A DNA stretch of 64,000 nt from Siphonodentalium dalli. Taxonomy: Eukaryota > Mollusca > Scaphopoda > Gadilida > Siphonodentaliidae. The stretch covers positions 99,841,319-99,905,318 of the forward strand of contig CP136066.1 of the NCBI GenBank assembly GCA_032622095.1. The letters are read 5' to 3'. The notes under the pieces were generated by a model that saw only the letters and a program-made list of their open reading frames with translations, did no database searches and was not told where the DNA came from. The position numbers and the translations under genes are program-made. Every line of letters begins with the position of its first letter. Position 1 is the first letter of the stretch. This document shows, piece after piece, positions 4,989 through 61,985 of this stretch.

Positions 4989-6049
4989 AAATCTTGATGG
5001 GAGAAATTTTTAGAATCCTTTTTTATGATATAGAAAGTGACCGAATCGTTGCAGTAAAAATTTAAAATCTACCTCTGATTGGCAGTCATATTTAGTAACC
5101 TATTCATTTAGCAGATAATTCGTGACTAAAATGAGGCTACATGTTTTATAGTCTATTGGATGTGGGGAAATTAGTTTATAAGAAATGATAGTGTCAATGT
5201 CATGACTGTAGCTCAACTCGAGGAGCTTAATATTATGCCGAACAGTCAATAGATTGATAAATAATAAGGAAAGTAACAACATTTCAGTTTCAGTAAGTAC
5301 TGTGTAGATGCAATTGTTTTAATTTCAAACATTTCTGCAATAAATGCTGCTGACGGCCATGTTTTTTTTAAACGAAATTATGAAAATATTGATGACTCCA
5401 ATCTGAAGACCACACTAAGACCATGATTTATGAAGTTTCTCAGAGTAGCCTATATTTTTATTCTGAATAGCATGTTTGTACATACATACAGAATTTGACT
5501 TACCGCACATACATTACAAAATGTTAACACGTGTGTCCCAGCATATACGAGATGAGAAAGGCATTAATTTGAGGCGTATTTGACAGTGGAATATTCGATT
5601 TGCCGTGTATATGCATACTCGTGGAATTGTGGCAGTACAGTGCAATTCACGAATTGTTTAAACTCGGAGATCATTTCGCTTCATCTGACAATTCATTCCA
5701 AACTGTAATAGCATGTGGCATAAATGACTTGTGTAAAGAGGTAGAAAATCAAAAGGGAGGTCTTAAGTTATCGTGACTAAATGGGTATCCACTTGAAGTT
5801 GTTGAATCTCTTGGGACATATTTATATAAATATTGTTTTCTCGTCATTTACATAAATCAACAAGTTTTGATTTATCTCACCTTTTCGATAGTTTCTTCCA
5901 TCCAATTGGTACCAATAAGCATCCCTATTACATCTCCTGTAGCCCAGTTATTATACATGCTGCTTCCAATTGCATATCTTCTAATAATTTTGATTCTTCA
6001 TCCGTGCAAATGTCACACACAAAGGAATCATATTCCAAGGCAGGGCGTA
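4989..6049. other. no gene seen
   Basis: AT-rich sequence with no recognisable exon or repeat apart from the approach to the degenerate array that starts near 6050. Confidence 0.5.
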
Positions 6050-7665: not shown

Positions 7666-8930
7666 CCGGATTTAAGCCGAGAGGTGGTGTTACATACATG
7701 TACCACCTCATGGTTTCAGCCACTGCAGATGTAATATAACTAAAATTAATAAATGAATTCAAGATATTTAATCATTTTTGGAAATGAGTTCGAAAATAAT
7801 TTGTGTTCCAAATTTAAGAAGTAGTGTCGCTGTCTGAAAATAAATTATTCTAACATATTCCAAAGTTCACTATTTACCAACAAGAAGAGTTCATAGCATC
7901 AAAGACCCCAACTATGGTAAAGTTGCATTCTTTGAAGCTATAAATGAAATGTGATTAATAGTTTGGCTTTTTGGAGCTGCATGTAGAAATCAATTTCATG
8001 TACACATTAAACACATATTATCGGTATATATTATAGGAAAAATTGAACGCTCAAAGAATTTGGTATCAAATGAAATTTTATATTCCTGTATAATAAAAGA
8101 TTGTACACTATACATGTACCTGTATGGCAATGCACATACCGGTAGCCATGACGTGATGCATGGTATACAATGCAAATGTTTTGAGTAGACATGTAATGTA
8201 CTTGAGTAGACATTACTTGTTAATACCATGTTCAATGTTTTAGTGCTATGCACACACATTCTTTGTATGAAGTAGAAGAAATAGCAATCGGTACATCCAC
8301 TGTCCCCAGAGTACTGTCTCTGTATATTTGATGACTATCATGACTTCATATAGCTGCACAGTCAACAGAGAACATGCTATTCTAATTTCTATAGTTGAAT
8401 ACACATGTATGGTTCATCGTCACTTCTATTCACAATAATCCAGAAAGAAATGATATTCCACAAGTGTCACACTTTTCATGTACCAGGATAGAGATACGGT
8501 TTGTCATCTACCTTGGAACAAACGTCATCTTGGCACGTTGGAGCTATGTCAGGCACATGCATATCATCATACATGCACATGTATATATGTAAGTCCAGTA
8601 ACACCACTTTCCTGCATTATTGTCCAATTGTTTATGCTATGATAAATCTCTTCATATGATATCAGATTTCCACCGCAGTCCTGAAAATATAGACATATAT
8701 CATAAATATACAATTACATATACCACATCACTATCTTTGTCTTTACACCAGTATCGATTCATGCATGGTGTCAGGGTTTGAACTTGCATCCCCACCTGCA
8801 AAGCACACAGCTAAAAATAATTATGCTGATACATGTATTATTTGTATATTCGGATATTGTTCCTAAACTCAAGGAAAGAATTATGGACAATTAAAATTGG
8901 AGGTCGTTCTCCAGATACGGTTACCGCTAC
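7666..8930. other. no gene seen
   Basis: AT-rich sequence with frequent ACATGTA words, for example around 8110 and 8570. No exon, RNA gene or repeat family recognised. Confidence 0.5.
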
Positions 8931-15480: not shown

Positions 15481-16036
15481 TTTATGAGCCAGGAATGGAA
15501 AAAAGGAGAATGGCGCCAAAATCGATGTTTTTTTATATATAAATGTTAGGGAAGTGGCTGACGAAAAACACATAACTGTTTAGCCAAGTCCGTATTTGTC
15601 TATGGCTGTTAGCCGATACGAAACATGTCAACAGTTTGATTACATGTTGTGGTCAACGCCAGGTAACCATGCACGTAAATTAAATAACATAATACTGCAC
15701 ATGTACAAAAACGCTCATTTTCATTAACTTTACCCTGAAAGATTTTGCTGATACGGTAGCTACCAAAGGTAGCATTTAGCTTTCTGTCGAAGCGGGTTGC
15801 CACTGTACGCCTGATATTGTCACAAATGTAGTTGCTCATTCGCAGGTTTACCGTCAACTCTGTAAAGACATGCTCACACAATGGCGAGGAAAACATTGCA
15901 AAAAGTTTGAGAGCAAAACTTCAGTCACAATTCACAAACTATGTCTCCGATTTCTGTACTTATCACGAGGGGATTTATCATTACAGGGATGACTGTTTAA
16001 TATATGATTCTTGTCAGATAGTATGATGTAGCTTCA
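15481..16036. other. no gene seen
   Basis: Two short frames (15609-15896 minus, 15832-16026 plus) overlap each other antiparallel and show no family signature. Confidence 0.45.
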
Positions 16037-16531
16037 AGGCACGGGCGGCGTTCGTTGCAGAAATATTTTTATCTGTTCAAATCGCCATCAACAGAAGGAA
16101 CACCAATATATATACAGTTCCGCTCATATGCCAAATTATAATCAGCGCGTAAATAGTATATTGTCAAGACGTACGATGGTGTACGCAAACAAGAGACAGC
16201 TCGTGTTACAGAAGGTTGTGATTCTGTTTACATAACACAGCGCAATTCTATTGGTTAATCTCACACAAATGATATAAACGCTCTTTAGTATTTCCATATC
16301 AGGAAAACAGTAACAAATAACGCTCTTTATGTTTACCAATTCCGGATCTAAACAAAAGACAGGAAACGTAGGGTGAACAAAGGGGAAAAATTGACAATAA
16401 CATACTGTTTATGCCATATTTCTGATTGGTATAAGAACAATGTCTGTCTATATCTTACTATTCCTTCTGTTTAAGGCGGTTTTTGATGGAGGTGAATATT
16501 TTAACAAGCATACCCACCGCCACCCGTATCT
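16037..16531 (-). mobile_element. TTAA MITE, full length, left arm of a composite
   Basis: A member of the ~495-bp family also found at 17600-18121, 53436-53930, 60154-60644 and 61414-61906 (plus a deleted copy at 28563-28828), here in the opposite orientation to all of them. Landmarks are an end AGGCACGGGCGGCG, then ATATTTTTATCTGTTCAAATCG, AACGCTCTTTAG and AACGCTCTTTATGTTTACCA, AGGCGGTTTTTGATGGAGG and an end CGCCACCCGTATC followed by TTTAAGG. The target site is TTAA on the right (16532-16535) and an eroded TTCA on the left. No coding capacity. Confidence 0.8.
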
Positions 16532-17599: not shown

Positions 17600-18121
17600 A
17601 GATACGAGCGGCGGTGGTGGTGGTGGGTATGCTGTTAAAATATTCAGCTCCGTCAAAAACCGCCATAAACAGAAAGAATAGTAATATATAGACAGACTTT
17701 GTTCTTATACAAATCAGAGATATGGCATAAACAGTATGCTATTGTCAAATTTTTTCCTTTGTTATGTAAACCAAAGAAAAAAACGTTGCAGAACCTGGCT
17801 TTTGTTTAGATCCGGATATGGTAAACATAAAGAGCGTTATTTGTTACTGTTTTCTTGATATGGAAATAATAAAGAGCGTTTATATAATTTGTGAGTGATT
17901 ATCCAATAGAATGGCGCTGTGTTATGTAAAAAGAAGCAAAACTGTAACACGGGCGGGTTCTTGTTTACGTACACCATCGTACGTCTTGACGACAATATAC
18001 TATTTACGCGCTGATTTTGTTTGGCATATGAACAACACTATATACTGTGTTTTAATATTCCTTCTGTTGGTGGCGATTTGAACAAATATGAATATTTCTG
18101 AAATGAACGCCGCCCGTGCCT
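17600..18121 (+). mobile_element. TTAA MITE, full length, right arm of a composite
   Basis: Opposite in orientation to 16037-16531. It starts AGATACGAGCGGCGG, includes AAAACCGCCATAAACAGAAAG, ACATAAAGAGCGTTATTTG and AATAAAGAGCGTTTATA, and ends CGCCGCCCGTGCCT followed by TTAA (18122-18125). It is somewhat longer than its relatives, by small insertions including GGTGGTGGTGG near the left end. Confidence 0.8.
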
Positions 18122-18539
18122 TTAAAAGTTGATATCTGGCCATCAAAAACCTCATAATAATGTCAAATGGGTACGATCTAATTATGTTCGGGTGTATAAA
18201 ACGTACAAATGATGGTTATATGGTGTCAAACAGGATAAATCATCTTTAAAACGAGTAGAACATCACTGTTGATAACAATTAGTATTGTGCATGCAGCGCT
18301 AATTGAACAGATGATTATTCTATTCACAGCTTTCGTTTTTGAACTTCCAAATGTATCTTTAGCTCTGTTGCAACATTAAATTATAAAACCACGCCCTGAT
18401 ATTGTGAGCATACAGATAGTTTGTCCCGCTTCTTTGTGGAACATATATTGATAACGGTTGTTTATTCTCGGTAAATTATGTGAGGTTTTTTTCAGGGAAA
18501 ATAACGTCTGTATAATAGAAATGTTGTATGAATTACAGA

Positions 18540-34366: not shown

Positions 34367-34936
34367 TCTCATATATATTTTTAAGACCTCTGTTTGTCTG
34401 TCTGTATGTCTGTCATTTATACAAATCTACGATTCTCGACCGATCGGGACGAAACTTGGTACGTGTGTGTAGTTTGACCAGGCGGTCGTCGTTGTCGTAT
34501 TGGCTTCGCGCATGCGCAGACGAGATATCGGACACGGGTGGAGCTATCGACTTGAAATTTGCTATGTGAATGTATCTTGCCCCGGATACGAATTTTATCG
34601 GGTCGCCGAGCCCGTGCGACGCCAGCTTCGCGCATGCGCAGACGAGATCTCGGAAACGGGTGGAGCTATCGACTTGAAATTTGGTATGTGAACGTATCTT
34701 GCCCCGGATACGAATTTTATCGGGTCGCCGAGCCCGTGCGACGCCAGCTTCGCGAATGCGCAGACCAGATCTCGGAAACGGGCAGAGCTATCGACTTGAA
34801 ATTTGGTTTTTGAATAGCCCGGACAACGTCGGGCTCATCGGCTTTTGAATAGCCCGGACAACGTCGGGCTGGGTAGAGCTATCGACTTGAAATTTGGTTT
34901 TTTAATAGCCCGGACAACGTCGGGCTCATCGGCTAG
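34367..34936 (+). mobile_element. non-autonomous Helitron with triplicated 3' hairpin
   Basis: The 5' end TCTCATATATATTTTTAAG follows a TATATA tract and resembles the 5' end of the units at 30909-33285, including the GTCTGTCTGT stretch. The 3' end is CATCGGCTAG before TATATA. Inside, a 122-bp unit (phase marker TATCGACTTGAAATTT at 34545, 34667, 34789) is repeated three times. The terminal hairpin AGCCCGGACAACGTCGGGCT occurs three times (about 34817, 34851 and 34908). Frames of 63-115 codons across this repeat on both strands are translation artefacts. Confidence 0.8.
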
Positions 34937-50850: not shown

Positions 50851-52027
50851 TCCATAGGGATATCCTCAGTCCCATTGGGGCAATCTACCTCCAGTTCATT
50901 TAAGTTAAAATGTTAGTCAGTAGATATGTGACTCATCTAATCTGGTTGTGGTTTACAAAATATCGAACCTTATTAGTGTTACTCGGAATGGGTAAGTAAT
51001 GATACTATTATCTGTTTTGTAAATGTTTGGGTTATGAATAAATAGTTGCAGTCAATCAATTGACTAATGGCGACAACGACATGAAAACATGTGTTTTGAA
51101 TGACTCGTGACCCGTACTACGTGAACAAAACGGGTGACGATTTTATCTAATGACATTAGCATTAAAATTGTATCAACATATTCCTTCGTTTCCCCCCATA
51201 GAAATGTATATTTGGAACCTAATATTTCAATATTTGTTCAATTTGAGCTACATAAAGAATATACACTCAAATTCGATATTTTTACCATAATAACATATTT
51301 CACCATAAATAAATGAACACAAATTGACAAGTATTAACAAATACTGATGTCACACTTTTGACTCCGATTGAAACTGAAATAAGTCCTCTTCTTTGATTGA
51401 CAAATATACACAATACGGAAAAATGTATGTGTGGTTCCCAGATATATCATGTGGTTTCCTTCCGCGCTGCACGACGTAAGCGACAATACGATATTCCGGA
51501 ATCGAGGCAGCTGCTCGGTACGGAAAAAATTATGCGTGGTCTGATGTGGTTCCCAGAAACATCACCGGGTTCGATGTTTACCACACGATATGGGTTTATC
51601 TTGTGTTGGTATCGATCAAGCAAATTGAAGATAGCACACCACACTAGTCAATAGATAATTAATAGTCTATATACGCAAGTAAAGGGTTATGACCGTATAC
51701 ATTCTAAATTATTATCTCGCCCGAACATAATTTTTTACCTAATGAACGAGTCTTGTTAAACGATCTTTATCTTTACCATATTTGGGGAAATTTCAAAGAA
51801 ACGCTCTTTATGTAATTGGCGTATTTTGTTGTTTGGCATCCAAGTCCAGAACAATAATCAGTGGGTAGACGTCCGCATTTGTCTTAAACGCCATGCGTAA
51901 TTTACAAATGTGTATTTCAAAGTGTTTTCCTAATGATATTGTCCAAAAATCAGTCTCGACGAATGGATGACTAGATTAATTAGCCCTCCGTACATTTTAA
52001 AGCATCAATTATGCAGATTGCGTAGTT
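50851..52027. other. no gene seen; relic of paired AACGCTCTTTAT words at 51755-51825
   Basis: AACGATCTTTATCTTTACCA and GAAACGCTCTTTATG, about 50 bases apart, repeat the paired motif of the TTAA MITEs and mark a decayed copy. An 85-codon plus-strand frame (51397-51654) with an antiparallel partner has a repeated GTGGTTCCCAGA and no known domain. Confidence 0.5.
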
Positions 52028-52424
52028 GGGTGATTCTCAGCGTCACGTACGTTACACTGAACTCATTTTTGAAGAATAAAAGAAGTTACTGTTTGAAAAC
52101 TGAACACTGATATCAACAATTGTTAAGTGTCCAGATAGTCAACTGTATATATGATTGTAACAAAATAGCAGACCAGCGGATCGGTGGTGTTTTAAAATGT
52201 TATGCCGAAACTGAAGTCTGTCGCGTGCGTTAAATTACATGCGAAAACAAACTTTTTCGCAACGTATTGGTTTCATTCATTGCTTCTATAATTTCTGACA
52301 ACTATACGCGATTTCCAATAAACTACCAGTGGCTCAGGCTTTCTTTTGTTTCCCAGAATTAATTTATCTACAGAGCCTCAATGTGTTGTCACGTACGTTA
52401 CATGGAATTGTCACGTACGTTACA
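52028..52424 (+). promoter_or_regulatory. left terminus: 12-bp inverted end and three GTCACGTACGTTACA sites
   Basis: The first site begins 14 bases after the start of the element. The other two (52388-52402 and 52410-52424) are spaced 22 bp apart, about two helical turns. The motif is itself nearly palindromic around ACGTACGT. Likely transposase-binding sites by analogy with other DNA transposons (inference). Confidence 0.6.
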
Positions 52425-53090
52425 TATTCAGGTCACGGACAATGTTTTCATAAATATAGCTTAAAATGCAGACATTTATTTCTAAAATTATTTTATTACC
52501 ACATTTATGTTAAATTGTAATAAAAAAATGATATCCAGAGTATGACAAATCCAAATTCTTTCAAATGGTATAAAAGTAAATAGACACTCTTTTTAAGAGT
52601 GACTATTTCCTTTGATACCATATTTAAGTATAATAAAACATATCATGTCCAGGGTATTAAAGGGAAGTTGTGTAGATGCAGTGAATAGAAACACTCTTTT
52701 TCCCATATCTTTCGGCCCCACCGCCTTATCAATGGCAATATAACTATATATTTACATATCAACTAAGTGTTTCTATGCAATGTATGTAAGTACAGGTTGG
52801 TTATTTGGATATCATAATAAATATAAGATGAAAAATTTCGACTGATTTTTGTGAATATCTTGATGGAAACTAAATGTTCTAAATCCTAAGCCAATGCATG
52901 GTATTGCATATGTATATATTTCTTTTCCTATTTTCATCTAAAAATAATACCATTACTAAATCTACAACAGGCCGCTTTACAGATAATATGCTAAAATATA
53001 ACAGTGTGTAATCTTAGAAATTAAACTAATAAAATAATTCACATATTCACTAAAAATTGTGCAGATATCCTATATTTATTCATTCCTTAA

Positions 53091-53280
53091 CACTTTCATG
53101 ACAGGAGCTGCGCTGGTGCAACATTGAAGATCATATGTCAGTGTATTCTATTATATATGCGAGCCTCGCATACCGGCATGTATAAGAGCATGCACTGGTG
53201 AACAAAGTCAATGTAAATATTGTTAGGCAAATGTATTCTCTAATATATGCGAGGCTCCCTATAAGACACTCGCATATTAA
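53091..53280. mobile_element. piggyBac-like MITE fragment
   Basis: Follows TTAA (53087-53090). The sequence CACTTTCATGACAGGAGCTG, CGCTGGTGCAACATTGAAGA matches the reverse complement of the right end of 7441-7660. Two palindromes with TATATATGCGAGGCTC-type words follow. The far terminus is lost. Confidence 0.6.
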
Positions 53281-53435
53281 AGTTTTTGCAAAATTTCAGC
53301 AAGCTTGAATCATGGAAGGGTAAAATTGCCGTTCAATCAATTTGCCTCTCAGCCTCTGAATTTGCTTGGATGGATGGGAAATGATAATAAATAATTGTGA
53401 TGACAAACCAATACTGTAATTGATATGACTATTAA

Positions 53436-53930
53436 AGGTACGGTTGGCCTTGGCGGTGGGTATCATGTGAAAATATTTCCACTCGTCAAAAACCGCCACA
53501 AACAGAAAGAACAACAAAATGTAGACAGACTTTGCCCGTATACAAATAAGAAATATCGCATAAACAGTATGTTATTGTCATATCTTTGACCATTGTTATG
53601 TAAACAAAACCATAAAAAGTAACTTTTCTGGTGTTTGTTTATATTATGATGGTAAACATAAAGAGCGTTCTTTGTTGGTGAATTCCTGATATGGAACGAA
53701 TAAAGAGCGTTTATGCCATTTGTGTGTGATTAGCCAGCAGCATTGTGCTGTCTTCTGTAACACAATCAGGCTCTTGCTTAGGTACAATATAGTAAATCTT
53801 TATGATAACATGCTGTTTACGCGATGGTCATGGTATATATGAACGAAACTGTATGCGTTTTTTATGTTTTTCTGTTTACGGTGATTGGAACAAATATGAA
53901 TATTTTCGACAACTAAGGCCCCACGTGCCT
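53436..53930 (+). mobile_element. TTAA MITE, copy inside the 5-kb transposon
   Basis: 495 bp bounded by TTAA at 53432-53435 and 53931-53934. It starts AGGTACGGTTGGCCTTGG and ends CCCCACGTGCCT. It is highly similar to copies at 60154-60644 and 61414-61906; the three form a younger subfamily than those at 16.0-18.1 kb. It contains the paired ACATAAAGAGCGTTC and ATAAAGAGCGTTTATG words. No coding capacity. Confidence 0.9.
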
Positions 53931-54069
53931 TTAAAGGGCAGTTCTAGCATTTACTTGAGAAATAACATGAATACCGGTCTGTCCAAGATTGTTCGATCGT
54001 TGGGTAATGTTTAACAGTCTGACATTCAAATTGATCCAATATATTTAACATGTGAATCCAACACATAAA

Positions 54070-56035
54070 CTTTATAGAAACTTGGCAAATTTAAATTGTC
54101 CAGGTGTGCCCGCAACATCTGGAGTGTTTATGGTCTTAACTATTTGGCTACTTGTATAGTATACTCTATCTGGTACTACAGGCCACTTCCAGAAATGTCC
54201 AGACCTGTGCATAACTTGCACCTGATATTCATTATCAATCACACCTGTAACCTCACCAGGAAAAAGTTCCCCATCGTAAGATGCTGCAACCCACTCTCCC
54301 AATTTGATAATCGACTGGCTTGCGTCTACTACAGTACATGCATCACCACAGTCAACAGTAGCGAGTGCCTCCTTGACGCCAAAAACATGATATGTTTCCA
54401 ATTTTCCAGTAGTACTAGTATAACAGTACTTACTAACATGCATCTTTGCTATGGATTAACATACTTTATTAAATTGTCAATATCTTTCTGGGACACAAGC
54501 ATAACTTCCACAATTGGCATCAGGTCCTTTACTAGCTTATAGAAGTCTGAATCATTTTGCACAACAGTATCCCCGGACAGATTCATAACCTTCTGTCTGA
54601 CCAACGACTTGGCTCTTCCACCAACCCCATCAATGACCATCTTCCCATGGGCAGTCGCAAAAAAATGTCCATTCCATGTTCTTCTTGTATTTCAAAGCCA
54701 AATCATGCATTGTTTTCATGGCATATCTGTTCTTGAACTCACTAGTCGGGCCATCACTGAATATTATGTCATTTTGATCAACTGAATTATTATCCTTGTT
54801 CAAATAGTTATAAATTTCCATCAAAAAAGTATATATTGTGTCACGGCCCTTATCCTTTGTGTCAGAACAAATTAGAAATGTCTTGAAATTATCATGGTCA
54901 AACGCAGCCGCTGTGAAAAACTGAACTGTATCCCGTGACCATAGGGCAGATTGTACCTCCTTCTGGTACTCACAAATGTAAGCCATTGCAAAGTCAATTT
55001 GGAGTATTCGGTGTTGGGTTTTGTCTGCATCGAAAGCATTCTGTGGAAGTCATTTTATGCGAACATGCTCCTGAATTTTTGGTATATTCTCCATTATTTC
55101 ATTGAGAAGAACTCCTGCTGTTATCAATTCACATTTTCCTCAATCTACCCTCATCACCCTTCTGCCAAACATACCACCAATCATATCCTGAATTATGCTC
55201 ACAGAAGCACTGAACAATTTGCCTTCTCTACATACATCACATTTTGCCTGCCAGCATTTTCCAGCCAGATCATCTAAATCACAAAGGAACGTTTCCCACC
55301 AACTCCCATCATAACTCCATCCTAATCATTTAATTCGCAACATAAAGTTCTCATGTAACCTGCACTTACACTGATCCCTCGGAGAGTCGCCCAGAAGGAG
55401 AACATTTTTAGGTCTCATCTTGCAGAAAGTTGAAAATGATACCGAACTATCAGCAGACAATTCTGAATATATCGCATAAGCCTCTCTAAAATACAGTCAG
55501 AAAATACTTCCTTTCTCAGTCTCTTTCCATCGATCCATATTGTCATCTCGTCCTTCATTCCAGGTAGAGTTATACTTATATCGGTTCTAACGAAGAAGCT
55601 TTCAACATTCAACCGATCTCCCGATGCCATAAGTTCCTTCAAAGACCCTTCAAACTTATTTCTGATCCTGAGTCCACTTCCTTAGCAAGCTCGCTTTGCA
55701 TGTGACGCCGGTAGACTTATTCGTGTTTGAGACACAGCCTTGCTGGAAGCCTGTCTCGATTTATATGACAGCCGTACAACCAATGGTTGCTCCATCGCCT
55801 TCTCTGGCTTTTTTCCTGTGTAATCTAACTCTCTCCTGTGTCGCTGCCCGGTTTACCTGCTTATCTTCTTCTGACATCATCAATTTCTTATTCCTCCTCA
55901 ACAATTTGATCCGCTCATTCTCACATTTTCTATATTCAGGATCATCCTTCCTCCTTTCCCTCATCTTTCTCATGCTATCAGCACTACTAGTTATTTTTTT
56001 AGGCAGAGACGAATCCATGCCTACATTCAAACAAT
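54070..56035 (-). pseudogene. transposase-like gene, unclassified 'SDGPxSxFKN' family, decayed
   Basis: Read 5' to 3' on the minus strand, the pieces follow the order of a protein family I recall as 'uncharacterized' in molluscs, cnidarians and fish. A basic N-terminus (MRKMRERRKDDPEYRK, ~55930-55980) comes first, then a KSRQASSKAV..SLPAS linker (~55690-55730), a FSTFCKMRPKNV..CKCRLHENF cysteine-bearing segment (55340-55437) and a core with ILQIDFAMAY (~54990), FSDGPTSEFKNRY (54719-54760) and HGKMVIDGVGG (54614-54652). A C-terminal GEWVAASYDGELFPGEV...WPVVPDRV domain closes it (54150-54300). The three core motifs with spaced Asp residues suggest an RNase H-fold (DDE-type) transposase; that is inference. 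It is broken by a TGA after LRIK (~55340), stops near 55140 and 55050, and a frameshift at a 7-A run (54659-54665). No introns are needed. Confidence 0.7.
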
Positions 56036-56727
56036 TTGGAGAGAAAGGACATCCAAATCATTCAAGCCTTTATATATACATCAGTCCAATTTCAAAACTT
56101 TCAGACACTTTCACTGCCAAAGTTCAACCACATACATATTTGTTTTATTGATTCCACCACATTGTGTGCCTTTAAATATAAAAATAACTAATGTCAGAAT
56201 AGTGCTCTTTGATATATAATGGTTATTATTTAGGCCACTGTCCTAATATATAGCACTGGAAACAACAGTCACATAATTGAAGGGTTAATTTGACATGCAT
56301 AATCTGTATGAAATTCCTACACTTTCTGCTGAAATATTGCTACATTGCACTTTCTGCCGAGATCTTGCTACATTGTGTATGTGTTATGCTGCAGTACAGC
56401 TGTACTGTATGTAATTTGAATTGGGAGGAATGTCAGCCAACTATTACGCAGTTTCTGCAACTCTGGATGACAGAACAGTAAGAAGTAACTGGCCTCTACC
56501 TTTCAATAAGTCATAACACATGTTTGTTTTGCCATATCTGGAACAATTGATTTCAAGAAATTGCACAAATCTACCTATAACCGCTTGAGCTAATGTATAT
56601 AGCTGATCTACTGATAACACAATGGAGATGCATATGTTAAATCCAGTAGCTGAAGTGCTGCTGTTAGTAGAAGCATCATAGTATAGAACAGAAGGGGCAA
56701 TTGATGTGTAGTTGCAATACATCCAAA

Positions 56728-57038
56728 TGTAACGTACGTGACGTCACGTGCGTTACACAACTTGTAAAGTATTTAAGCGTTTTTTACCAACAGCAACCAC
56801 TTTTAATTAACCTCATAATTTTTCAATTAATTTCCTACATACAATAGTGTAATAACTGTTATATTGCTTTACGTGGTTTTCATGTAATGAGAATACTAAA
56901 CAGTTCATTGTTGTCACGTACGTTACAGTTCAATTCATAAGATGTAAATTTGAGACTTTTTGCCCCCTGCATCCCACATGCATAAAAAGAAATATATTGG
57001 CATACTGGAATAAAATTTACATTTTTTGAGAATCACCC
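56728..57038 (-). promoter_or_regulatory. right terminus: paired palindromic sites and 12-bp inverted end
   Basis: TGTAACGTACGTGAC (56728-56742) abuts GTCACGTGCGTTACA (56743-56757), forming a 30-bp palindrome containing a perfect TGACGTCA. A further GTCACGTACGTTACA is at 56913-56927. The end TGAGAATCACCC is at 57027-57038. The palindrome lies about 700 bp upstream of the N-terminus of the minus-strand transposase gene, so it could serve both as transposase site and as promoter element (inference). Confidence 0.55.
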
Positions 57039-57826
57039 GGTTACCATTTTAAAAGGACAATCGTAGACACAACGTTACATTTTAAATATGACCTGATTTA
57101 TTTTCAAAACATCTTTACATGTGCATTGACCACATGGGGTCTGGGAACCTAAACAAACAATATTACATGTATATGAAATTAAAGCAGAAAACAGTTCCCG
57201 GACCTGTGCTGGAAGGGGTTCTGTGTAGCACGCTTCATATCAACACCATAATTTACTAGTCTCCTACCGTGACTATCGGTAGGCCTGAAGCTGAAATTGT
57301 AAACATTAACAAACCACACACGTGGACAGCGGCGGTCACAAAACTTAAACGGACCCCCTTGACAACCTGTATTTAATTTTTTTATGGGAACACTTTTTTT
57401 CAATACAACTGTATTTCTACCCCCCTCCCCAACCCACATACATGCATGCACATGCAACGAAACAATCAAGATAATATACTTTATTACTATATATTCTAGT
57501 TGAAACGATGGTGGGGCTTGCGGCCCCTTGTTGCGCTTCGCGCACATTATATTATATTGAACAGCGCGCTCTTCGCGCACAATTTGATCCTTTAATCATT
57601 CTTTTATCAGATTTATTCTCATCTGAGAGAAGAAAAGAGCATTAACGTCGGCAGTATTGTTTACACTGTATTATTCCCGGTCCCGGGAATGTGGTTTTTC
57701 TAACCGAGTTCCGGCGAATCTGCTGAACGGTATACCCACTGGCGGGAGGTCAGACTGTGTCCATTTGCCATATTCTGTGTATACCGGTACTGCTTCGATT
57801 CCACATTCAATGCACAACTTTCATAA
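57039..57826. other. interval upstream of the recombinase-like gene
   Basis: It holds a 133-codon minus-strand frame (57580-57179) with no recognised domain, GCGCTTCGCGC / GCGCGCTCTTCGCGC inverse words near 57532-57580, and a CCCGGTCCCGGGA palindrome at 57677. A promoter and first exon of the downstream gene would be expected here, but I cannot identify either. Confidence 0.45.
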
Positions 57827-59712
57827 CAAGAGGACATCGACAAGGTTGATGAGGGGAGGCCACCAACTGGTGAAGAATGCAAGGATGCAGATGAAGAACG
57901 GCAAGAGGACATCGACAAGGTTGATGAGGAGAGGCCACCAATTGGTGAAGAATGCAAGGATGTAGACGAACAGCAAGAGGACATCGACGAGGTTAATGAG
58001 GAGAGGCCACCGACTGGTGAAGAATGCAAGGATGCAGATGAACAACAAGAGGACATCGACGAGGTTAATGAGGAGAGGCCACCATCTGGTGAAGAATGCA
58101 AGGATGCAGATGAACAACAGCAAGAGGACATCGACATATTTGATGAGGAGAGGCCACCAACTGGTGAAGACTGCAAGGATATAGATGAACAGCAAGAGGG
58201 GGACATGGACGATGACGTTGATGACGTATGAAGTATATTCAAAGGGTGCGAAGAGGATCAGATACATTTCAAGCAGCAGTTTGAATTATGATGAACATGA
58301 TGAGAGGCCACTAGTTGTTGACGAATCCGAGGATTCTGGAGACGAACAAGAAGAGGACATGGACAAGGACGTTGATGGTGTGGCACCAGTGGATGAAGGA
58401 TCTCCAAAGGGTGCGAAGAGGATGAGATATGTTTCAAGTAGCAGTGGGACTTCTGATGACCAGATTGAAAAAAGAAGAAAAAATGTCCAGTGTTAAAGGT
58501 CCAAAGGTATTCACTCGCAAACTGGTAAAATCACATACAACATCCCACGGTGTTAAGAAAAAAAGGTCGTTTGTTTGGAACCAAGTTCATGCATGTAAAT
58601 TCTGCAAAAAAAAATAAGAACAAACTTTGCTAAACATGTAAAACAAGAGGGATCACAAATGTCAGCCTGAAATTCAGAATATCCTGAAAGTTTCAAAGGA
58701 AAGGGGTTTCGACACAAACATGTTAGAGCGATGTGGGACATTTTGAGGAACAAGGGTGACCATGTCAATAATATTGAAGTACTGTCAAAGGGAAGAGGTG
58801 AAGTCATTGTTTCCAGGCGACAACATGAAACATTTGATTTCTCCTGGTTGTTTCGCTTGGCTCAAATTGGACAGAACTATGTTTAGGCACCAGAAGTGTT
58901 GTCCAGCAATTATTCTGGAACAGACAGATGATTCACATGCAATAGCAAACGAATCACATGCGACAGCAAACGAACTGCGAGTTTGTAGCCTTGGTATGTC
59001 TCTGAGGTTAAATCCTGAAGCTAGCGATCTCCTTAAAAATGAATTTTCCTATTATGACAAATGTTGATGTTACAGCTCAATCACAAAATGACAACTTCAT
59101 AATTTCCCTTGGCAATATGTGGATCACCAAAAACTATTGGAAATCGTCTTAAAAGGAAATACTACACATCTAGAATGCGAGGGGCAGCACGGCTCCTAAT
59201 AATTGCTCGAAAACATGCAAACAAACCAAGCTACAAAATGAACGATTTTGTAATACCCGAACATTTTGATGATCTCGCCGCAGCAGCATTGATGACAGCC
59301 TCTCCAGATTTCGATGACATTGATGACATGAAGTCACCCTCTACTGCCATAAAATTAGGGTTTGATATCAAACGTATGGCAGCAGCCAAATGGGGTCAGG
59401 CCCTGATAGACAAGAATTATGCAGACAAGACAAATTGGAAGGATTTCTTCAAATTGATGGAATTGCAGTGGTCCATGAAGGTTACAAAATTCGCAACAAC
59501 CACTCTACAGTTGCGGAAATTCAATAAAAACAACCACTCCCAGACCCAAGTGATCTTGTAAACCTACAAGGTTACATCAAAGACCAGTTGAAATAATTTG
59601 ATTTGGATCTCAGGGATTTGTCTTCGACCTCTTACCAAAGGGTGTGTGAGTTGGCTGATACGAGACTGCTCCTCTACAACAAGAGACGTGCTGGAGAGAT
59701 TGAAGCAATCAG
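57827..59712 (+). pseudogene. tyrosine-recombinase-like gene, exon 1 (decayed N-terminal part)
   Basis: The frame from 57827 (just after an in-frame TAA at 57824) encodes an acidic repeat (five 24-25-residue units, 57851-58217). It then shifts near 58225 to the frame of 58240-58496 (YSKGAKRIRYISSSS and KGAKRMRYVSSSS, a duplicated module). Further shifts lead through CKFCKKK..TNFAKHVKQE (zinc-finger-like, ~58590-58650), LRNKGDHVNNIEVLSKGRGE (58745-58805), GCFAWLKLDRTMFRHQKCC (58848-58905) and GMSLRLNPEASDLLKNEF (58995-59048). The long clean segment 59118-59561 follows, then LADTRLLLYNKRRAGEIEAI (59653-59711) and a GTAATT donor. The motif order matches a family of ~1000-residue animal proteins that end in a tyrosine-recombinase-like domain (from memory). 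At least four frameshifts and two stops make exon 1 non-functional as assembled. Confidence 0.68.
57851..58217 (+). repeat. coding minisatellite, 72/75-bp units, acidic repeat
   Basis: Units start at 57851, 57926, 57998, 58070 and 58145, so the steps are 75, 72, 72 and 75 bp. Each encodes roughly EERPPTGEECKDADEQQEDI plus a short linker. Length changes are whole codons, which suggests that the array expanded while the frame was under selection. Long frames on the opposite strand (57700-58242, 57821-58267) are shadows. Confidence 0.8.
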
Positions 59713-60687
59713 GTAATTACTGTACTATCATATTTGCAGAAGAATGTTGCAAGACAACTTTAGTAAATAAGGTCTGGACCTCACCAAAGTGAGTCAAGAC
59801 GCAAAATAAAACAATTACAAAAAATCCGACAATGTACGATTTCCAGACATAGTGACAGTTCTGTATAGTATGTTTTATAGGTAAACTGTATAATAAAATA
59901 GCTTATTTGCATATGTATGAATACGATTATCTCAGATTATCTCCAGAAATTGTTCATGTTGGCACCGATATTCAAAATACGATAACTTTGGATTGGAACG
60001 AGGTATACCCCTGTTTTTTCTTTCTACGTAAAGCCCGTATCAACGTCTATCGAATGCAACAGATAACTAAAATATTATTTTTTCTGACATGAGACTGGTT
60101 TTGATATGGCCGGTCATATTTTGAATGTTGTTCACAGTTTCCTTTGCTCTTAAAGGTACGGTTGGCCTTGGCGGTGGGTATCCTGTGAAAATATTTCCAC
60201 CCGTCAAAAACCGCCACAAACAGAAAGAACAAAATGTAGACAGACTTTGTCCGTATACAAATAAGAAATATCGCATAAACAGTATGTTATTGTCATATCT
60301 TTGACCATTGTTATGTAAACAAAACCATAAAAAGTAACTTTTCTGGTGTTTGTTTATATTATGATGGTAAACATAAAGAGCGTTCTTTGTTGGTGAATTC
60401 CTGATATGGAACGAATAAAGAGCGTTTATGCCATTTGTGTGTGATTAGCCAACAGCATTGTGCTGTCTTCTGTAACACAATCAGGCTCTTGCTTAGGTAA
60501 AATATAGTAAATCTTTATGATAACATGCTGTTTACGCGATGGTCATGGTATATATGAACGAAACTGTATGCGTTTTAATGTTTTTCTGTTTACGGTGATT
60601 GGAACAAATATGAATATTTTCGACAACTAAGGCCTCACGTGCCTTTAATATTATTATCGTCATGTGTTAATTTATACATTGTTTCAG
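59713..60687 (+). other. intron 1 of the recombinase-like gene, with MITE
   Basis: It runs from the GTAATT donor at 59713 to the acceptor TTGTTTCAG ending at 60687. A full-length TTAA MITE (60154-60644) occupies half of it, close to the acceptor. The rest is AT-rich without features. Confidence 0.55.
60154..60644 (+). mobile_element. TTAA MITE in intron 1
   Basis: 491 bp bounded by TTAA at 60150-60153 and 60645-60648. It is nearly the same sequence as 53436-53930 and 61414-61906, so insertion was probably recent. The paired AAAGAGCGTT words are intact. Confidence 0.9.
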
Positions 60688-61361: not shown

Positions 61362-61985
61362 TATAATCGTGGTGTTCCAGTTATTGTGTCGGCAGACATG
61401 AAGGACGTTTTAAAGGTACGGTTGGCCTTGGCGGTGGGTATCCTGTGAAAATATTTCCACCCGTCAAAAACCGCCACAAACAGAAAGAACAACAAAACGT
61501 AGACAGACTTTGTTCGTATACAAATAAGAAATATCGCATAAACAGTATGTTATTGTCATATCTTTGACCATTGTTATGTAAACAAAGCATAAAAAGTTAC
61601 TTTTCTTGTTTTTGTTTATATTATGATGGTAAACATAAAGAGCGTTCTTTGTTGGTGAATTCCTGATATGGAACGAATAAAGAGCGTTTATGCCATTTGT
61701 GTGTGATTAGCCAGCAGCATTGTGCTGTCTTCTGTAACACAATCAGGCTCTTGCTCAGGTAAAATATAGTAAATCTTTATGATAACATGCTGTTTACGCG
61801 ATGGTCATGGTATATCTGAACGAAACTGTATGCGTTTTAATGTTTTTCTGTTTACGGTGATTGGAACAAATATGATTATTTTCGACAACTAAGGCCTCAC
61901 GTGCCTTTAAAGTTTCTGGCTAGTGCCAGCGTCAGGCAGAATGTTGGAAGGAGAACTTCAAACACATACTTATTTGCCTCATCTA
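61362..61985 (+). pseudogene. tyrosine-recombinase-like gene, exon 3, split by a MITE
   Basis: The exon begins YNRGVPVIVSADMKDVLK (61362-61413) and resumes after the MITE with KFLASASVRQNVGRRTSNTY and LFASS (61911-61985), followed by donor GTAAGT. The MITE (61414-61906) lies within the Leu-Lys codons and its TTAA duplication accounts exactly for the extra bases, so the pre-insertion exon was open. The sequence corresponds to the family's 'VPVLL..EMK..L' and 'N-YLFA' strands, early in the catalytic domain. With the insertion, the frame enters MITE sequence and stops, unless the MITE is spliced out. Confidence 0.65.
61414..61906 (+). mobile_element. TTAA MITE inserted in exon 3
   Basis: 493 bp, with TTAA at 61410-61413 and 61907-61910 forming a perfect 4-bp duplication. 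Ends AGGTACGGTTGGCC and GGCCTCACGTGCCT. Because the interrupted coding frame is recognisable, this copy proves that TTAA belongs to the target and fixes the element boundaries. Confidence 0.93.

Follow-up and report, generated by a model that had tools for sequence, protein, structure and literature searches.

A decayed DNA transposon of Siphonodentalium dalli with a predicted integrase-like transposase and ordered subterminal sites

The element and its broken gene

The stretch analysed here, called the window throughout, comprises 64,000 nucleotides of the scaphopod mollusc Siphonodentalium dalli (GenBank assembly GCA_032622095.1, contig CP136066.1). Positions 52028-57038 of the window hold an element with short terminal inverted repeats (TIRs), arrays of a repeated motif inside both ends, and a single broken gene on the minus strand (Table 1). 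A preliminary description of this DNA had proposed a delimited DNA transposon, with exact 12-bp inverted ends, six subterminal motif copies and one decayed gene with three Asp-bearing motifs, encoding a transposase of no nameable superfamily. Exact matches to the end sequence, GGGTGATTCTCA, are indeed confined in the window to the two ends of the element. When up to two mismatches are allowed, four matches are found in the window versus 4.6 expected, i.e., the 12-mer is not rarer than chance, and the case for the ends therefore rests on copies elsewhere in the genome. These copies, described below, have ends of the same kind and 4-bp duplications, and the proposed delimitation is upheld. We conclude with high confidence that the element is the dead remnant of an autonomous cut-and-paste DNA transposon, with a predicted DDD, RNase H-type, integrase-like transposase.

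The gene was aligned with P0180, an intact 690-residue relative encoded by JAAEPJ010000558.1, a contig of a bacterial metagenome-assembled genome. The contig is probably animal DNA within that assembly; P0180 is flanked there by GGGCAATTCCAT inverted ends and site arrays of its own, and the flanks show no duplication. The window gene is spread over several frames with stops and retains all three Asp motifs, as had been described; IDFAMAY and SDGPTSEFKN share one frame (54630-55049), and HGKMVIDGVGG lies in another (54449-54691). Residues 5-122 of P0180 are mostly helical in the predicted structure, and its conserved Cys and His residues in the putative zinc-binding region are C232, C234, H237, C266, C273, C278, and C281.

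Table 1. Features of the element and its borders (positions in the window)
Feature	Position	Strand	Observation
Whole transposon copy, decayed	52028..57038	.	5,011 bp; exact inverted ends; sibling copies with common end zones and 4-bp duplications
TIR, A-end (downstream of gene)	52028..52039	+	exact GGGTGATTCTCA
TIR, B-end (upstream of gene)	57027..57038	-	exact GGGTGATTCTCA
Target-site duplication, left copy AGTT	52024..52027	.	3/4 bases as in right copy
Target-site duplication, right copy GGTT	57039..57042	.	3/4 bases as in left copy
A-end site array	52042..52424	.	copies 52042-52056, 52220-52234 (3 mismatches), 52388-52402, 52410-52424
B-end site array	56728..56927	.	copies 56728-56742 (-), 56743-56757 (1 mismatch), 56913-56927
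Broken transposase gene	54078..56057	-	tblastn with P0180: residues 88-169, 190-477, 474-534, 611-690; several frames, stops
N-terminal basic region, putative	55761..56057	-	open reading frame (ORF) rich in basic residues; assigned from ORF composition
Cys/His-rich region, putative zinc binding	55140..55496	-	matches P0180 from residue 190
First catalytic Asp motif IDFAMAY (predicted)	54978..54998	-	equivalent P0180 D365 is Asp in 86/86 rows
Second catalytic Asp motif SDGPTSEFKN (predicted)	54729..54758	-	equivalent P0180 D445 is Asp in 85/85 rows with a letter
Third catalytic Asp motif HGKMVIDGVGG (predicted)	54617..54649	-	equivalent P0180 D486 is Asp in 85/85 rows with a letter
C-terminal SH3/Tudor-like domain	54078..54308	-	matches P0180 residues 611-690, 49% identity
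Nested interspersed repeat, ~506 bp, not of original element	53429..53937	.	copies 60147-60648 (97.6%), 61410-61912 (96.6%); also in L025

At E up to 1e-3, the protein family counts 3,103 database members. None of the 120 relatives listed carries a functional name, and the source names among them are only "uncharacterized", "hypothetical" or "unnamed"; the preliminary description, too, had known relatives as "uncharacterized" only. Identity between lineages is 25-46% (93% for E32 versus E34, and up to 55% against the core piece of the window). Predicted structures revealed an RNase H core most similar to that of retroviral integrase, followed at the C terminus by a Tudor-like domain; three Asp in the core are invariant (DD40D). 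They occupy canonical places on the predicted RNase H-like DDE/D transposase/integrase fold. The family is predicted to consist of DDD transposases of the RNase H type, their core resembling that of integrases. Structural matches of the core, among those listed, include the integrases of Rous sarcoma virus (RSV), simian T-lymphotropic virus (STLV) and human immunodeficiency virus 1 (HIV-1), with 9-15% identity in structural alignments; for the Tudor-like part of the model, the listed matches point to the Tudor domains of PHF19, PHF1, and MTF2. Sequence searches of the PDB gave nothing useful for P0010 with its core (best E 0.66) and no match at E up to 1 for the Tudor-like domain.

In a scan of 43 family members, none of the curated Pfam profiles assigned the protein to an established family of transposases. 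DUF7869 (PF25273), a domain of unknown function, matched the catalytic region of 8 of the 43 members weakly, at E up to 1 and below the cut-off (24.8 bits versus a gathering score of 26; two best members shown), and the MULE profile matched one member at a chance-level E of 0.085.

Some further repeats were observed in the window. The nested repeat of ca. 506 bp has weaker copies at 17618-18126 and 16033-16522; its start and end apparently adjoin TTAA, resembling a TTAA-targeting miniature inverted-repeat transposable element. A 72-bp tandem repeat (57827-58199, five copies, 89%) gives an acidic, repetitive protein when translated from the plus strand, and a 122-bp tandem repeat (34503-34814, 2.6 copies, 94%) has an apparently G+C rich unit in a window of 38% G+C.

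Copies in the host genome and target-site duplications

The host genome (2.23 Gb, 9 contigs) contains 215 exact matches to the 12-mer GGGTGATTCTCA, versus 114 for a reversed control pattern, indicating that about half of the matches are background. Pairing was counted at 100 of the 215 places, those listed on contigs C1-C4. Adjacent pairs within 10 kb were inward in 18 cases and outward in none, with 0.026 inward pairs expected at random, and further copies bounded by the same ends are thus present in the host. Most siblings are ca. 2.2 kb long and consist of element bases 1-1094 joined to bases 4092 to ~5000, that is, both end zones and no gene. One copy, L025, is a divergent, decayed, gene-bearing element of 7.4 kb; its TIR contains the same 12 bp and reaches 28 bp at 93%.

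The core protein of the window gave 77 matches in the host genome, many in long open frames. Twenty gene-bearing loci were examined with their flanks (18 of these matches, the window, and L025). Both ends were present in eight (the window, L025, E30, E32, E33, E34, E47, and E57) and one end in five (E31, E36, E38, E49, and N87), so the gene does occur between such ends. Host relatives with long open frames carry variant ends. The termini read were GGGTGATTCTCA; GGGCGATTCTTT / GGGCGATTATTT; GGGCGATTCTAC; GGGTCATTCCAT / GGGCCATTCCAT; GGGCCGTTCCAT / GGGCCATTCCAC; and GGGCAATTCCAC, from which a common signature, GGGYNATTC, can be drawn; the right ends of E32, E33, and E34 and the left end of E57 deviate from it by one base. 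E32 and E33 occupy different insertion sites although their sequences agree at 99.35% over 4,955 bp, suggesting that they moved recently.

Among 22 independent insertions in which both ends were read, 19 show a target duplication of 4 bp with no more than one mismatch, exact in 13. The statistics were obtained with a set of 16 insertions (18 inward pairs and the window, i.e., 19 copies, less three that have the flanks of a fourth). Eight of these had identical 4-bp flanks and 13 had flanks with at most one mismatch, versus 0.82 and 2.67, respectively, for shuffled flanks. Among duplication lengths from 2 to 12 bp, a signal was observed at 4 bp alone, and none of 2000 shuffles matched the observed 4-bp identity. 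Exact duplications flank E32 (ATTA), E33 (AAAA), E34 (CTAA), E47 (ATAT), and E30 (TTAA; two terminal bases of its right end deviate). The weakest case is E57, with three of four bases identical inside a G run.

Two paralogous empty sites agree with the 4-bp duplication. For L011, the two flanks joined together can be aligned across the junction with an adjacent unit of the surrounding tandem repeat, which carries TTAT once (identity in 147 of 177 columns; the alignment extends 13 bp beyond the junction); a pattern search for this empty site with up to 3 mismatches returned no match. The joined flanks of L021 match a 45-bp paralogue inside L012 at 39 of 45 positions, with TATT there and TATC in the duplication.

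A different origin of the structure, in which a chance inverted pair surrounds a host or retroelement-derived integrase-like gene and no transposon is involved, would account for the frequency of the relaxed 12-mer in the window, for the background share of exact genome matches, and for a fold closest to retroviral integrase. It is contradicted by the inward pairing, the duplications, and the empty sites, and seven ORF pieces from the gene region, the part of the element scanned with Pfam, yielded no reverse transcriptase. We consider this origin extremely improbable, and a chance origin of the TIRs is ruled out by the genome copies, their pairing, and their duplications. Members of the transposon family were mobile in the past: they are flanked by 4-bp duplications, and gene-less, internally deleted copies carry duplications as well and retain both end zones with their site arrays.

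Several loci have features of their own. Four copies (L011, L013, L014, and L023) lie in a tandem repeat and share their flanks, and the transposon there probably multiplied along with the DNA around it. The gene copies of L046 and L048 (E46 and E48) are 97.6% identical, with a tandem repeat of ca. 516 bp upstream, and the two sequences cease to be similar ca. 0.4 kb past the gene, where no end can be recognised. At L088 (N88; ~5043-5786), a divergent gene copy is followed by an array of the motif ATTCCGTCAC, with some copies ca. 190 bp apart; a possible end, GGGCCATTAACTGT, is not secured. Weak core matches lie in open frames of 937, 853, 853, and 1456 residues (C8:9184858, C6:84812395, C6:138887518, and C9:158201278, respectively), which exceed the usual 600-700 residues and may be fusions or domesticated genes. 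A pattern search of viral contigs gave five matches, none of them a relative.

Arrangement of the subterminal sites

The subterminal motif of the window element, GTCACGTACGTTACA, is present in five exact copies and one with a single mismatch, all in the terminal zones, as first described; a seventh, degraded copy (3 mismatches) is located at 52220, also in a terminal zone, and the rest of the window contains a single match with 3 mismatches, at 8192. Site positions in the various lineages were recorded with up to 3 mismatches, as distances (in bp) of site centres from the end. At the A-end, sites are found at 21, 199, 367, and 389 in the window; at 20, 198, and 386 in E30; at 190, 370, and 392 in E57; at 22, 190, 379, 402, 569, and 591 in E32; and at 18, 187, 375, and 396 in L001. 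At the B-end, they are found at 366, 534, and 550 in E30; at 368, 533, 558, and 571 in E32; at 372, 526, 549, and 563 in L001; at 529 in E57; and at 119, 289, and 304 in the window. E57 has one additional, internal match. E47 is mirrored, with sites at 22, 188, 386, and 400 upstream of the gene and at 365, 531, 547, and 566 downstream of it, so the orientation of the gene relative to the ends is not fixed.

The same layout was observed among 17 siblings of the window family, four of which share one set of flanks. At the A-end, the first site is at 21 in all 17, the second at 190-200 in 15 (exceptions, L012 and L020), and a doublet at 379-395 and 401-416 in 15 (exceptions, L020 and L027); in 14 of them, the sites of the B array lie at 365-369, 534-540, and 549-555 (exceptions, L016, L021, and L023). 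Compared with most siblings, the window itself has its B array shifted by ca. 246 bp towards the end, in line with an alignment in which the right-end zone of the window is ca. 246 bp short, in two gaps.

Agreement between lineages was evaluated in a Monte Carlo test with the window, E30, E32, E47, E57, and L001, in which sites were placed evenly over 8-650 bp and the orientation of E47 was left free; E34, L025, N87, and E38 were not part of it. The observed score was 1.34, compared to a random mean of 0.28 and a maximum of 0.58 in 5000 trials. Five loci were fetched after the pattern had been seen. N87, the only one of them with a clear end, carries a different motif at 22, 201, 390, and 412 bp, distances that fit the layout; E38, fetched earlier and scanned later, has sites at 344, 511, and 532, which is roughly B-like. 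The DNA of like ends is dissimilar: 33 of 36 pairs gave no match at E up to 1e-3 (L019 standing for the window lineage), and the three that did match over 32-39 bp, at sites or the TIR. Lineage-specific motifs are thus located at near-equal distances from the ends, ca. 20, 195, 380, and 400 bp at the A-end and ca. 366 and 535-550 bp at the B-end, an arrangement newly described here.

Site clusters are spaced by 183 bp on average (range 166-205, n=17), which is close to the nucleosome repeat length. The regular spacing could instead reflect a rigid multi-subunit transposase complex unrelated to nucleosomes. The very constant ca. 22-bp doublet spacing and single-site positions fit such a protein lattice, whereas 183 bp between clusters is a large distance for proteins in direct contact and approximates a nucleosome repeat, and the transposase has a predicted Tudor-like domain; neither of the latter points is decisive. 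We give the rigid complex a little under an even chance.

The following mechanism can be envisaged. The N-terminal basic helices and the Cys/His region would bind the lineage-specific subterminal motifs; several protomers would sit at site clusters ca. 183 bp apart and bring the A-end and the B-end together, in a synapsis of unlike ends. The core would then cut at GGG and attach the ends to the target strands with a stagger of 4 bp. Contacts with chromatin or DNA might be made by the Tudor-like domain at the C terminus, and the nucleosome-scale spacing may place the sites in successive linkers.

A number of observations weigh against the interpretation as a whole, from transposon to mechanism. 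No end was recognised in seven of the 20 gene-bearing loci within the fetched range (E46, E48, E52, N84, N85, N86, and N88). Three of the 22 insertions (L012, L017, and L027) lack a clear duplication, and the flanks of the L001 element, AAAT and TTCT, are unmatched, its TIRs and site arrays being present. Site positions in L025 (188; -207 and -580; two more further in) fit the layout poorly. Foldseek gave weak E-values, 1.0e-3 and 4.7e-4 at best, and its top matches are mixed (integrase, terminase nuclease, Argonaute, RNase H, and Endonuclease V). The Tudor-region aromatics W653, W655, and Y664 are conserved in only ~60-70% of the 28-30 rows with letters, and chromatin contact by this domain is a conjecture. 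Transposase activity, in the form of DDD catalysis by the integrase-like core, is a prediction, and the nucleosome phasing is a hypothesis drawn from spacing alone.

Comparison with known systems

The proposal that no superfamily can be named for the protein holds in part: it falls into no Pfam transposase family, and Sola, considered by description only, is a possible home. Sola elements encode DDD transposases, have 4-bp target-site duplications and very variable terminal sequences, and are mostly 2-9 kb long (PMC10741241); they are reported from bivalves (PMC10294476), in both cases according to the accessible parts of these texts. The present element shares with them the three invariant Asp, the 4-bp duplication, and a similar size. 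This likeness comes from descriptions, which, as far as their accessible parts go, give neither a GGGYNATTC signature nor ordered subterminal arrays. Membership in Sola (Sola1 or Sola2), with novelty limited to structure and end geometry, has in our judgement slightly less than even odds. Assignment to a superfamily of eukaryotic transposons that is new and has no name yet is comparably tentative, with Sola standing beside it. It is favoured by the lack of a Pfam transposase match above chance in the 43 members, by termini or duplications that disagree with the partial descriptions of IS3EU, IS481EU, and piggyBac, and by the uninformative names of the listed relatives. Since the comparison with Sola covers two features, the duplication length and the DDD triad, and both are shared, we neither file the family as Sola nor claim a new superfamily outright.

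Literature searches with the protein motif strings, or with the end and motif letters, returned apparently unrelated papers, judged by title, and the term DUF7869 was not found in the literature searched. Papers on new superfamilies, on Sola, and on Tudor domains, subterminal repeats or nucleosomes contain no description of the present family in their titles or the starts of their abstracts; likewise, no chromatin-phased transpososome was found described there for any transposon. The most far-reaching interpretation, an unnamed animal superfamily with a Tudor-ended DD40D transposase, GGGYNATTC termini, 4-bp duplications, and unlike ends whose lineage-specific arrays at fixed distances form a chromatin-phased transpososome, appears unlikely as a whole.

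The ends, the duplication, the predicted fold, and the native long-frame copies make functionally unnamed proteins annotatable as transposases, and testable. Fixed distances between sites with lineage-specific letters point to a constraint on end geometry, not sequence, possibly set by nucleosomes. Should the family belong to Sola, a structural and end-architecture description would be added that was not found in the accessible parts of the Sola literature searched.

The element is filed as a DDE/D cut-and-paste transposon with integrase-like chemistry; by the features tested, it is not IS3EU, piggyBac, Ginger, or hAT. Kolobok elements duplicate TTAA. The same duplication is described for piggyBac in the accessible text of PMC5199201. 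Here, TTAA flanks one of 22 insertions (E30) and the others vary, so both are rejected. Ginger1 and Ginger2 have TGT..ACA termini, unlike those observed here. Their 4- or 5-bp duplication (PMC10045372, in part) agrees. IS3EU, GingerRoot, and IS481EU are, like the present element, eukaryotic transposons with integrase-like DDE/D transposases; the available portion of the same source gives them TA..TA or TNT..AYA termini and duplications of 6 bp, or of ~4, 15 or 25 bp. For IS3EU and GingerRoot, these are TA..TA (occasionally TG..CA in GingerRoot) and 6 bp (PMC10045372), compared to GGG..CCC and 4 bp here. The hAT duplication is usually 8 bp, and 5-7 bp in some groups (PMC12730594, in part), while lengths of 5 to 8 bp gave no signal in our insertions, which show 4 bp only. 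Subterminal repeats are a feature shared with hAT, where those at the ends of Hermes and Kat1 are of importance to the transposase or serve as its binding sites (PMC10368747, PMC4763223); the two-end layout with ca. 183-bp spacing was not found in the accessible parts of the hAT texts. The DDD motif and the ends bear on the last comparison, that with the RSV, STLV, and HIV-1 integrases. The third catalytic residue of retroviral integrases is Glu. The present protein resembles them in its core fold and in an SH3-like domain after the core, and differs in having Asp as the third residue and in belonging to a transposon with TIRs.

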